The notes beneath the pieces are model-generated. The model saw only the letters and a program-made list of their open reading frames with translations, did not search any database and was not told where the DNA came from. A DNA stretch of 64,000 bases from Erysipelothrix sp. HDW6C (lineage in GTDB: Bacteria > Bacillota_I > Bacilli_A > Erysipelotrichales > Erysipelotrichaceae), in NCBI RefSeq assembly GCF_011299615.1, contig NZ_CP049861.1, positions 1,240,001-1,304,000 of the forward strand, in the 5' to 3' direction. Shown here one piece after another: positions 12,826 through 61,003 of this stretch (its first letter is position 1; every line of letters starts with the position of its first letter). A program made the position numbers and the translations under genes.

Positions 12826-14331
12826 ATGATTAAAGATGGTAAAATCTGGATTGCACAAAATGATGATTCAGTCTACTTATTTCCGAAACAACTGAATCGT
12901 CATGGATTAATTACAGGAGCTACAGGAACGGGTAAAACAGTTACTTTAAAGGTTCTTGTTGAAGCATTGAGTGAACTGGGAGTTCCAACATTTCTTGCAG
13001 ATATAAAGGGAGATGTTTCTGGACTTGCTGCCATTGGTGTAAGTAATGAAAATGTTGACAAGCGCGTCGAAAAATTTGCAATCAATGATTTTTCACACAA
13101 GGCATTTCCGGTTGTGTTTTGGGACATTTTTGGCGAATCTGGAATTCCAATTCGAACAACAATATCCGATATGGGCCCAATCATGCTTTCAAAACTCTTG
13201 GAATTAAATGAAACACAAGCAAGTATACTAACACTTCTATTTAAAATTGCGGATGAACAGGGACTGCTTCTATTGGATTTCAAAGACTTAAAAGCAGCAC
13301 TTGATTTTGTATCAAAAAATGCCAAGGAACTTGAATCTCAATACGGTTATATGTCTTCACAGTCAATCGGTGCGGTTATTCGAAAACTCATTTATCTTGA
13401 AGAGCAGGGTGCGGATATTTTCTTTGGTGAACCTGCACTTGATATCTTTGATTGGATTGCCCATGACAGTTCGGGAAAGGGAATCATTAACATACTCCAT
13501 GCAGTAAAACTCTTCCACACCCCAGTACTCTACGCAACCTTCTTGTTATGGATGCTATCTGAATTATTTGAGATGCTTCCAGAGGTTGGTGATCTTGAAA
13601 AGCCCAAAATTGTATTCTTCTTTGACGAAGCACATCTGCTTTTTAAAGATATGCCAAAGAGTCTTATTGATCGCATTGAGTTGGTCGTTAAATTAATCCG
13701 TTCAAAAGGTGTCGGAGTCTTTTTTATAACACAAAATCCCGCAGATATTCCAGATATCGTGCTAAGCCAGCTCGGAAACCGTGTCCAACATGCTCTTCGA
13801 GCCTATACTCCAGGAGAGCAAAAACAAGTCAAAGCCGCTGCCAATGCATTTCGGGTTAATCCTGCGTTCGATACTGCAACTGTTATTACAGAACTTGCGA
13901 CCGGTGAGGCGCTGGTATCTTCACTTGATGAAAATGGCATCCCCACGGTTGTTGAACGTGCATTCATACTTCCACCGCAAAGTTTTATGGGTGAGATAGA
14001 TTCTGCACACCGTACTCAGCTCATCGCAATGAGTCCTTTGAATGCAAAATATCGTGAAGCGATTGATCGCGAATCCGCATTTGAACTTCTCTCTGCAAAA
14101 CAACTTGAAGCAGAGGAAATGGCACAGCAAGCTGAAAAACAAGCACAGGTAGCGAAACAATTGGCAGATGAGGCAAAAGAAAACGAGAAAGCAAAACGGC
14201 AAGCAAAACAAAGCCAAAAAAACAACCCACTCACGAAAGGTTTCAATTCTGCAGTGACTTCAATGGGCCGTGAAATAGGACGTTCAATTGTCAGAGGGAT
14301 TCTTGGGACCTTTGGTGGAAAGAAACGATAA
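12826..14331 (+). CDS. HerA/FtsK-superfamily ATPase, DUF853 (YjgR) family
   Basis: 501 residues. Walker A is GATGTGKTV (31-39). Walker B is KIVFFFDEAHLLF, near residues 262-274, followed by the sensor FFITQNPADIPDIVLSQLG. The LVTGLADIKGDVSGLA-type region after Walker A and the GGKKR-ending basic tail, preceded by a Glu/Ala/Lys-rich coiled coil (about 420-475), match YjgR-like proteins. These are predicted DNA or membrane-translocating hexameric motors of unknown function. It follows a membrane-protein gene and precedes an independent PTS IIB. Confidence 0.9.
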   Translation: MIKDGKIWIAQNDDSVYLFPKQLNRHGLITGATGTGKTVTLKVLVEALSELGVPTFLADIKGDVSGLAAIGVSNENVDKRVEKFAINDFSHKAFPVVFWDIFGESGIPIRTTISDMGPIMLSKLLELNETQASILTLLFKIADEQGLLLLDFKDLKAALDFVSKNAKELESQYGYMSSQSIGAVIRKLIYLEEQGADIFFGEPALDIFDWIAHDSSGKGIINILHAVKLFHTPVLYATFLLWMLSELFEMLPEVGDLEKPKIVFFFDEAHLLFKDMPKSLIDRIELVVKLIRSKGVGVFFITQNPADIPDIVLSQLGNRVQHALRAYTPGEQKQVKAAANAFRVNPAFDTATVITELATGEALVSSLDENGIPTVVERAFILPPQSFMGEIDSAHRTQLIAMSPLNAKYREAIDRESAFELLSAKQLEAEEMAQQAEKQAQVAKQLADEAKENEKAKRQAKQSQKNNPLTKGFNSAVTSMGREIGRSIVRGILGTFGGKKR

Positions 14332-14414: not shown

Positions 14415-14717
14415 ATGAGAAAAATCATTTTACTTTGTTCAGCAGGAATGTCAACAAGTATCTTAGTAACTAAGATGCAAGAAGCAGCTGCAGCACAAAA
14501 CTACGACGTTGAAATTTCAGCGCATTCAGTTAGCGAAGCATCACGCGTTGGTGCAGATGCAGATATCATTTTGTTAGGACCACAAGTTCGTTTTAACTTG
14601 AGCACAGTCCAAAAACAACTTCCTGAGAAACCAATCGAAGTTATCGATATGCGTGCATACGGTACCATGAACGGTGAAGCTGTTATTGCCGAAGTTAAAA
14701 AAGTATTAGGTGACTAG
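14415..14717 (+). CDS. PTS lactose/cellobiose-type IIB component
   Basis: 100 residues with the P-loop-like cysteine motif RKIILLCSAGMSTSILVTKM; C8 is the phosphorylated cysteine. It has the low-molecular-weight phosphatase-like IIB fold. SD AAGGAGGG upstream. It probably works with IIA at 11989 and a IIC encoded elsewhere. It is monocistronic between a cre-like promoter and a terminator. Confidence 0.95.
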   Translation: MRKIILLCSAGMSTSILVTKMQEAAAAQNYDVEISAHSVSEASRVGADADIILLGPQVRFNLSTVQKQLPEKPIEVIDMRAYGTMNGEAVIAEVKKVLGD

Positions 14718-14721
14718 TCAT

Positions 14722-14752
14722 AAAAAAATGTTAGGCAACTAACATTTTTTTT
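14722..14752 (+). terminator. Intrinsic terminator after PTS IIB
   Basis: AAAAATGTTAG-GCAA-CTAACATTTTT hairpin with a long T run. Confidence 0.92.
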
Positions 14753-14772
14753 AATTTAAAAGGAGTATAGAA

Positions 14773-15189
14773 ATGAAACCAACAATTATTTATTGGACAG
14801 GGTCTGGGAATACTCAGATTATTGCGGATGCGATTCAGGAATCCGTTGAAGCGCTCGGTTACGAATGTCCAAGTAATTATGTCAGTGATGTCCAAGCATC
14901 AGATGTTGCGGATGCTGATTTGTTCTTTTTAGGATGCCCAGCAATGTCGGGTGAAGATGTCGAAGAATATGAATTCCGTCCATTCCTAGATGACTTAAAG
15001 CCATTGATCACTGGAAAGAAAGTCGTCTTATTTGGATCCTATGATTGGGGTGACGGGGAATGGATGATCAATTGGAATCAAGAGATGGTCGATGCAAACA
15101 TTACAGTTGCTGAGAAAATTCAAGTGCAATGGGAACCAACAGAAGAACAGATAGAAACCATAAAAGCAACTGTAACAAGTCTATTCTAA
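14773..15189 (+). CDS. Flavodoxin
   Basis: 138 residues with the FMN phosphate loop TIIYWTGSGNTQIIADAI, the second loop FFLGCPAMSGEDVEEYEF and the 90s-loop FGSYDWGDGEWM. All are placed as in short-chain flavodoxins. It would carry electrons at low potential. SD AAAGGAGTA before ATG. It has a TGSGNT loop preceded by Trp in place of the more usual Ser/Tyr, which is within the family's range. Monocistronic. Confidence 0.93.
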   Translation: MKPTIIYWTGSGNTQIIADAIQESVEALGYECPSNYVSDVQASDVADADLFFLGCPAMSGEDVEEYEFRPFLDDLKPLITGKKVVLFGSYDWGDGEWMINWNQEMVDANITVAEKIQVQWEPTEEQIETIKATVTSLF

Positions 15190-15252
15190 ATGAAAATTCT
15201 TTCAAGAATGAAAGAACGGTGTAAATATTTGTAACAAATGATGTAAATTCTG

Positions 15253-15280
15253 TTGACACATCACTTTTTAAGTGTATAAT
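15253..15280 (+). promoter_or_regulatory. Strong sigma-A promoter of the candidate small RNA
   Basis: Perfect TTGACA (15253-15258), 16-base spacer and perfect TATAAT (15275-15280). No protein-coding gene starts within 180 bases, and a terminator lies in between. Confidence 0.85.
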
Positions 15281-15286
15281 GTACTT

Positions 15287-15437
15287 ATAGATAGCAAAAC
15301 TATCTTAATAATACTTGTCCTCAAACGGTGATTCGTTCAACTCTATTTCCTCAATTATGAAACCTAAATTTCCTCCATAAATGTAGAAACGAATCGTCTC
15401 CTAATAAAACACACCACAGGGTGTGTTTTATTATGTT
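15287..15437 (+). ncRNA. Candidate trans-acting small RNA with four anti-Shine-Dalgarno motifs
   Basis: About 150 bases between a consensus promoter and a strong intrinsic terminator (AAAACACACC-ACAG-GGTGTGTTTT, 15406-15429, then a T-rich tail). It has no convincing ORF. Pyrimidine motifs complementary to the SD recur at 15318-15322 (TCCTC), 15346-15352 (TTTCCTC), 15368-15376 (ATTTCCTCC) and 15397-15402 (TCTCCT). Two lie in a large loop closed by GATTCGTT (15330-15337) and its complement AACGAATC (15388-15395). A small 5' hairpin TAGATAG-CAAAA-CTATCTT precedes them. This is the design of SD-blocking sRNAs such as streptococcal csRNAs. The identity is an inference. Confidence 0.65.
15406..15437 (+). 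terminator. Intrinsic terminator of the small RNA
   Basis: Ten-base perfect stem with an ACAG loop, followed by ATTATGTTTT. It separates the small RNA from coaD. Confidence 0.9.
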
Positions 15438-15469
15438 TTGTTGTATAATTGTTCAAGAGAGGTATCACT

Positions 15470-15946
15470 ATGAAAGTTATGTATCCTGGCTCCTTTGATC
15501 CAATCACAACCGGCCATCTTGATTTAATTGAGCGTTGTTCACGAATGTTTGATGAGGTAATTGTCGCAATAATGGTTAATGAAAGTAAAAGCGGTACGTT
15601 CTCAAGAGAAGAACGCTTAGAAATTGCTAACGAATGTGTTGCCCACCTTGATAATGTTACCGTCGAAATTGGAAATGGGCTTACCGCTGATTTTGCCGTT
15701 AAACGCAATTGCAACGTTCTTGTCCGCGGTATTCGTGCTGTCATGGATTATGAGTATGAGCTTCAACAAGCAACCGCCAACCGTGTCCTTATTAAAGATC
15801 TGGAAACATTGTTTCTGGTTGCAGATCCAAAGTACTCACACATCTCATCATCGGTTGCGCGAGAAGTAGCACGCTATGGTGGTAATTTGGAGGGGTTTGT
15901 ACCCGCAAATGTTGCTACAAGACTCTACAAATATTATAAGGAATAA
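15470..15946 (+). CDS. coaD: Phosphopantetheine adenylyltransferase
   Basis: 158 residues. It carries out the fourth step of coenzyme A synthesis, transferring AMP to 4'-phosphopantetheine. The nucleotidyltransferase motif is MYPGSFDPITTGHLDLIERC, with TTGH the HxGH-type ATP site. RGIRAVMDYEYELQQATANR and the C-terminal ISSSVAREVARYGG are strongly conserved. I chose ATG 15470 because GAGAGG lies about 11 bases upstream and the family starts here; the upstream TTG at 15449 overlaps a TATAAT. A hairpin follows before tRNA-Arg. Confidence 0.97.
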   Translation: MKVMYPGSFDPITTGHLDLIERCSRMFDEVIVAIMVNESKSGTFSREERLEIANECVAHLDNVTVEIGNGLTADFAVKRNCNVLVRGIRAVMDYEYELQQATANRVLIKDLETLFLVADPKYSHISSSVAREVARYGGNLEGFVPANVATRLYKYYKE

Positions 15947-49959: not shown

Positions 49960-49965
49960 GAAAAA

Positions 49966-50187
49966 AATCGATGACCATGAATAGTATCTTGGATTAATGC
50001 AAAGAGAGTTGCTGGGTGGTGTGAAGCAATCATTACAAAAGAGAATGTCACATGGAAGATAATTATCTGAAACACGAAGTAAGATAGTTCGTAATCTGGC
50101 GTTAACAGAATCTAGAGGTTTCTCAATTGAGAAATAAACTAAGGTGGTACCACGATTAACATCGTCCTTTATGGATGATGTTTTTTT
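49966..50187 (+). promoter_or_regulatory. T-box leader, valine-specific
   Basis: A canonical T-box sequence AAGGTGGTACCACG lies at 50141-50154 and a terminator (CATCGTCC / GGATGATG, 50160-50187, with seven T) follows. The Stem I apical part reads GAGAGTTGCTGGGTGGTG near 50005. The specifier is probably GTC at 50047-50049 in GAATGTCAC, a valine codon followed by the usual purine. Uncharged tRNA-Val would stabilise the antiterminator and switch on the acetyltransferase gene and valS. Confidence 0.92.
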
Positions 50188-60335: not shown

Positions 60336-60815
60336 ATGTCAAACAAACACGAATTTCGTATTATGCGTCAGGGCTATGATCGCTTTGAAGTGGATCAAGT
60401 CGTTAATGATTTAGAGCATGAGAATAAAGTGATGCAAAAACAAATGCAAATCTTTAAGAAACAAGTCGAGACACTTCAAGAACAACGTGATATAATCAAG
60501 AAACGCTACCAGCAATTGGTAGGTGAAATAGCAGTTCGAGAACGAGCAGCTGAAGAAATGTCACGATTGGCACTTCGCGAAGCAAACTCAATCATTGATA
60601 ATGCCCGCTCAAACGCTGATATGATTGTCCGTGAAGCAATGTCGACTTCGCGTCAGGTTCTTGTAGAAATTGCACGAATCTCAAACGAGTCAAATGAGCT
60701 CCGAGATGAATTGAAATTTAGAATTAAAGATTTAGAGGAAGCAATCGACGGTCTAGAATTGCCGGATGCTCCAAATTTGAACTTATATAGCGATGACCAA
60801 GACACATCAAAATAG
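60336..60815 (+). CDS. divIVA: DivIVA-family cell-pole protein
   Basis: 159 residues from the second ATG (60336), better spaced from AAGGAG than ATG 60333. N-terminal lipid-binding motif FRIMRQGYDRFEVDQVVNDL followed by long coiled coils (about 30-145). It recruits division and growth proteins to curved membrane. It ends just before the isoleucine T-box. Confidence 0.95.
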   Translation: MSNKHEFRIMRQGYDRFEVDQVVNDLEHENKVMQKQMQIFKKQVETLQEQRDIIKKRYQQLVGEIAVRERAAEEMSRLALREANSIIDNARSNADMIVREAMSTSRQVLVEIARISNESNELRDELKFRIKDLEEAIDGLELPDAPNLNLYSDDQDTSK

Positions 60816-60819
60816 CAAT

Positions 60820-61003
60820 CCATTCTAGAGACTTCATGGTTGGTGAAAATGAAGAGGGACCTGTATTGATATCACTTGTGAGCTTGTTTTTGAATCGAGT
60901 AGAAAACACGTGGGCGGCGTTAACGCATTTAAGTGCACATACACTGTATGTGAATTAAGGTGGTACCACGTTTAAGACGTCCTTATTAGGACGTCTTTTT
61001 ATT
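60820..61003 (+). promoter_or_regulatory. T-box leader, isoleucine-specific
   Basis: T-box core AAGGTGGTACCACG at 60957-60970 and terminator AAGACGTCCT / AGGACGTCTT with T tail (60974-61003). The Stem I apical part is AGAGACTTCATGGTTGGTG near 60828. The specifier is probably ATC at 60871-60873 in GATATCAC, an isoleucine codon. No clear promoter is visible between divIVA and the leader, so transcription may come from sepF-divIVA or a weak internal start. Confidence 0.92.

Follow-up and report, generated by a model that had tools for sequence, protein, structure and literature searches.

The locus and its transcript unit

The DNA analysed here, referred to as the window, is a stretch of 64,000 nucleotides from Erysipelothrix sp. 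HDW6C, whose genome is a single contig of 2.36 Mb. At the locus of interest the gene order is PTS IIB, flavodoxin (Pfam Flavodoxin_1, 1.5e-10), a predicted small RNA gene and coaD. All the features described below for the RNA gene and its promoter lie on the forward strand.

The promoter (15253-15280) consists of a -35 element TTGACA (15253-15258), a 16-bp spacer and a -10 element TATAAT (15275-15280). It had been described as perfect, and indeed it is the sole 12/12 match between positions 14000 and 17000; the nine weaker promoter-like matches in that interval are an ordinary number (7.7 +/- 3.0 in shuffles). TTGAC and TATAAT are also present in relatives. From the promoter spacing and the first conserved block, AUAGAU, we place the start of the RNA at 15287, giving a predicted non-coding transcript unit of about 147 nt (15287-15433). 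It ends in an intrinsic terminator (15402-15433) of 14 pairs followed by TGTTTTGTTG, which is strong, as previously described, and whose stem is kept in relatives while its bases change.

Two further structured RNAs, both T-box leaders, lie elsewhere in the window, at 49962-50172 (143.9 bits) and 60784-60987 (118 bits).

Conservation across the genus and beyond

We searched 13 Erysipelothrix genomes and found a coaD match in 12 of them, all with the RNA gene upstream of coaD; the thirteenth, an 88%-complete assembly (G001), yielded neither coaD nor the RNA gene. The gene is intact at 11 of these 12 loci and is interrupted by an insertion sequence in the terminator loop in G006. This element is about 1.3 kb long (about 1651-2918 of locus L012), has the ends GGAACTGACC...GGTCAGTTCC, is flanked by an apparent 3-bp CTC duplication and leaves the RNA without a terminator of its own. 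A DNA-level comparison with 40 relatives gave matches of 80% identity in two species; several others matched more weakly, and many of the weak matches listed are chance.

A covariance model, the check proposed in the preliminary description, matched 12 of the 13 genus genomes strongly, once in each (78.7-149.3 bits). Eleven of these twelve were training sequences, so that their recovery is by construction, and the twelfth, from G003, has the same RNA sequence as G007 and is thus not independent of the training set. The informative outcomes are the gap to the next-best match inside the genus, at 37.6 bits, and the single copy per genome. Nothing comparable was found in the 182 other genomes of the family (195 were drawn, including the 13 of the genus), where the top score was 36.4 bits, or outside the genus in an order-level draw of 294 genomes, where the top value was likewise 36.4 bits; both searches ran with stricter filters, by which weak matches can be lost. 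Inspected by eye, 15 weak matches proved to be terminators or the antisense of ribosome-binding sites, with no two-motif arrangement of the kind described below. A distant blastn search of a phage collection gave no match to the RNA.

Among the coaD loci listed from outside the genus, other genes lie upstream and the RNA gene is present in none. The arrangement of coaD adjoining flavodoxin (14415-15946 in the window) is the one found in Erysipelothrix; at many readable loci outside the genus, coaD follows an apparent rRNA methyltransferase gene, as judged by eye.

Anti-SD motifs

The preliminary description counted four regularly spaced UCCUC-type motifs complementary to Shine-Dalgarno (SD) sequences. 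Three sites of this type stand, while the fourth is UCUCC and occurs in some species only. Equivalence of the four is not supported: the conserved core consists of two loop motifs, UUUCCUC(C). The spacing of the four is regular only approximately.

Motif 1, UCCUC (TCCTC in the DNA, 15318-15322), lies in a single-stranded linker and is partly conserved, reading UUGUCC or UGUCC in most relatives and being absent in G005. Motif 2, UUUCCUC (TTTCCTC, 15346-15352), lies in a loop and has the same sequence in most lineages, with UUUCCUU in G008 and G011 and a changed form in G010. Motif 3, UUUCCUCC (TTTCCTCC in the DNA, 15369-15376), is in the same way a loop motif and is the most conserved: UUCCUCC is found everywhere except in G005 (UUUCCUUCC), and its columns are among the invariant columns of the alignment, while the sequence of the closing helix described below is not conserved. 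Motif 4, UCUCCU (TCTCCT, 15397-15402), is lineage-specific, lies partly in that helix and touches the terminator stem. Motifs 2 and 3 are predicted to be mostly unpaired in 11 sequences (0.59-1.0), with mean unpaired probabilities of 0.70 and 0.82, respectively, in the window. Conservation is hence not limited to promoter and terminator, the outcome that the preliminary description had named as counting against it: motifs 2 and 3 form a conserved pair.

Predicted fold and a drifting closing helix

The RNA (15287-15437) has a predicted folding energy of -34 kcal/mol against -17.9 +/- 3.3 in 200 shuffles, none of which was as good (z -4.9). A 5' hairpin, P1 (15289-15305), pairs AGAUAG (15289-15294) with CUAUCU (15300-15305); it is kept in relatives and begins at, or adjoins, the presumed first base of the RNA. 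A long-range closing helix, P2, is supported by the fold, by arm pairing and by arm swapping. Its 5' arm (arm A, 15327-15337) lies between motifs 1 and 2, and its 3' arm (arm B, 15388-15398) between motif 3 and the terminator.

In ten distinct sequences, the pairing energy of arm A with arm B lies between -11.3 and -16.3 kcal/mol, and the own value was reached, depending on the species, by 0 to 43 of 2000 shuffles; the weakest cases are G012 (43) and G000 (32). The arm sequences are almost wholly different among six lineages. When arms were exchanged among these six, the natural assignment had the lowest total energy of all 720 (a mean of -12.6 for own arms and of -6.2 for swapped ones), with the exception that one swapped pair, G011 with G005 (-15.3), is stronger than its own. 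Taken together, the divergence of the arms and the rank of the natural assignment indicate that pairing, not sequence, has been kept. RNAalifold on a MAFFT alignment recovered the terminator only, the drifting helix being left unaligned; the arm pairing and arm swap tests were used in its place. By these tests, the predicted P2 fold is real.

Sequence comparison and predicted structure thus agree on an independent transcript unit whose anti-SD motifs are conserved and stay unpaired. The proposal of an independent RNA with anti-SD motifs is strongly supported by the conserved promoter and terminator, the covarying closing helix, the position of the motifs in a predicted unpaired loop, the lack of a conserved open reading frame and the variable distance to coaD. 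On this comparative evidence, we conclude that the locus encodes a member of a real small RNA family of Erysipelothrix, conserved in the genus and structured.

An operator-like array upstream of the promoter

Directly upstream of the -35 element lies an array of TGWAA/TTWCA half-sites (15195-15252), which includes TGTAAA-N4-TGTAAC-N6-TGTAAA. In eight genomes, the 58 bases before the -35 element hold 38 half-sites, compared with 9.5 +/- 2.7 for dinucleotide shuffles, forming seven inverted pairs (0.14 expected) and five direct pairs (0.18 expected). None of these counts was reached in 1000 shuffles, a significance that is overstated because the motif was picked after viewing the same sequences. 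The window's genome contains a single TGTAA-N5-7-TGTAA-N5-7-TGTAA, which lies in this array.

Operators of WalR/VicR have the form TGTWAH-N5-TGTWAH, as given in the part of PMC4168254 used here. Like them, G007 and G003 carry TGTAAA-N5-TGTAAA before the -35 element, whereas the half-sites of the other species are looser in spacing or inverted. Judged by its half-sites, the array resembles OmpR-type (WalR/VicR-like) operators.

One pstS match in G008 raised the question of membership of the Pho regulon. PhoP promoters are characterized by the Pho box, a consensus of TTAACA-type direct repeats. Such repeats are found in most of 12 pstS upstream regions and are absent from the small RNA promoters (both by eye); we rejected Pho membership, most pst promoters carrying TTAACA repeats instead. 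In most of these pstS upstream loci (L200-L211) the repeats take a TTAACA-N5-TTAACA-type form, again by eye, and the pstS match of G004 (L208) contains one in-frame TGA. G004 also has TGTAAA-N5-TGTAAA-N5-TGAAAG about 70 bases upstream of a gene for a subtilase (around 1495-1530 of L191/L221), similar to the array of the G007 small RNA promoter. A triple TGTWA repeat is likewise found near genes for exported-looking proteins in G011; together with the G004 subtilase case, this is suggestive only.

Search for targets

We examined complementarity to the motifs in the 20 bases before the chosen start of 60 non-overlapping window genes of at least 110 codons; the starts had been chosen by their best SD match, which favours hits. 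Motif 3 is complementary over at least 7 contiguous nt in 6 of the 60 genes and over at least 8 in 3, compared with 0 of 60 for control windows inside genes. For motif 2, complementarity of at least 7 nt was seen in three genes, compared with one in the control. In 13 genomes, the pattern GAGGAAATA-N0-7-ATG occurs at 121 sites, while its reversed form, used as a control, occurs at 70, an excess that ordinary SD usage would explain; three of the 121 are the antisense of the RNA itself.

This pattern-based search of the 13 genus genomes revealed no regulon and no target with conserved extended pairing. The genes at the pattern matches are diverse, and none was common to the lineages as far as examined. 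The best-looking target in G000, sodA, was set aside as a conserved target, its extended complementarity not being kept in relatives (13 genomes). By complementarity, a selected set of roughly one gene in ten could be within reach of the RNA, and the repression of many mRNAs that the preliminary description had envisaged is plausible.

Proposed function and alternatives

We favour, with some confidence, a trans-acting small RNA, probably under two-component control, that would block ribosome-binding sites containing GGAGGAA. Sequence comparison shows the RNA's own promoter, 5' hairpin, drifting helix, loop motifs and terminator; SD blocking is the most likely mechanism. In a subset of mRNAs, the two loop motifs would base-pair with GGAGGAA-type SD sequences and so keep ribosomes from entering; helix P2 would serve only for presenting the two motifs. 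More tentatively, an OmpR-type two-component regulator might bind the TGWAA/TTWCA array and switch transcription, in which case the RNA might turn a signal from the environment or the envelope into repression.

The best of the alternatives, which we nevertheless hold to be unlikely, is a protein-binding RNA in which the UUUCCUC pair in the loop titrates a pyrimidine-binding protein of the cold-shock, KH or a similar type. In CsrB, GGA loops titrate CsrA, and the logic here would be like that of CsrB with the opposite base preference. Near-identical motifs at variable spacing on a helix of free sequence suit such a role, as do the lack of a conserved anti-start codon and of a conserved target in our searches. 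However, only two sites are strongly conserved, they are complementary to ordinary SD sequences, and no candidate protein was identified. The fuller form of this idea, in which the RNA is a protein sponge and not mainly an mRNA antisense, its drifting scaffold presenting the paired UUUCCUC to a pyrimidine-binding regulator under the control of an OmpR-type switch, is by a shade less likely again.

It is improbable that the RNA acts in cis on coaD as a leader or attenuator, or that it arises by 3' processing of the flavodoxin mRNA. The synteny with coaD is constant in the genus, but the RNA has its own consensus promoter, a TATAAT-like sequence belonging to coaD follows the terminator, and the distance from the RNA to coaD ranges between 38 and 181 nt and is broken by the insertion sequence in G006; the predicted folds, moreover, contain no alternative antiterminator helix. 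As for processing, the flavodoxin stop codon precedes the RNA start by 69-97 nt at 10 of the 11 intact loci, yet in G008 it is 420 nt away. A short peptide gene or toxin-antitoxin component is highly improbable: G000 does contain short readable frames, but no open reading frame is conserved on either strand, frames of at least 12 codons vary from lineage to lineage in both sequence and position, and G010, G008 and G012 have none of that length on the forward strand.

Comparison with known small RNAs

C-rich small RNAs that block SD sequences, such as RsaE/RoxS and FsrA, are known from low-GC Gram-positive bacteria. The trans-acting RNA favoured here follows the same logic as the named C-rich families (csRNA, LhrC, RsaE/RoxS and FsrA), with an unpaired anti-SD motif, a strong promoter with regulator-like sites and a terminator. 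That it is a member of one of them is nevertheless very doubtful. Rfam gave no credible match to the RNA at gathering or permissive thresholds; the csRNA model (RF02379) reached 16.7 bits (E 7.7) against a gathering score of 57. The CiaR repeat and a conserved CAU are absent: among 12 promoters inspected by eye there is no NTTAAG-N5-TTTAAG, with a single TTTAAG in G000 and G004, and the antisense of GAGGAAATA-N0-7-ATG lies inside the RNA in only 3 of 12 genomes (G003, G007 and G005).

The csRNAs of the Streptococcus CiaRH regulon have two stem-loops, with an anti-SD sequence and an anti-start CAU in 53 of 61, are preceded by NTTAAG-N5-TTTAAG and occur in several copies, according to the portion of PMC3091779 drawn on here. 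The Erysipelothrix RNA is like them in being a small RNA with a strong, probably regulator-linked promoter, an anti-SD sequence in an unpaired region and a terminator. It differs in being single-copy, in its drifting long-range helix around two motifs, in an anti-start sequence that is not conserved and in the different operator-like array that precedes it.

Listeria LhrC exists in five copies, with UCCC motifs in loops and a linker, and RsaE and FsrA are likewise UCCC small RNAs, in the account taken from part of PMC4132741. Like LhrC, the Erysipelothrix RNA carries several C-rich anti-SD sites that are redundant with one another, and two-component control is known for LhrC and suspected here. 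Unlike LhrC, it carries UUUCCUC inside one helix-closed loop and has one copy per genome, not several, which speaks against LhrC membership. From RsaE/RoxS and FsrA it is set apart by the absence of an Rfam match at the locus.

We found no description of this RNA, or of trans-acting small RNAs of Erysipelothrix, in the literature covered, which largely excludes subscription papers and supplements; the RNA is not described in the parts consulted of the E. rhusiopathiae papers PMC4105556 and PMC4968806 and of PMC6429828. The Erysipelothrix RNA is not in the public RNA family library, while its functional kind is already known. As a single-copy, genus-wide RNA with a two-motif loop and a promoter bearing strong operator-like repeats, it offers an entry to post-transcriptional control in Erysipelotrichia, and it illustrates cleanly how an RNA can hold two contact motifs constant and let the helix that presents them vary freely.
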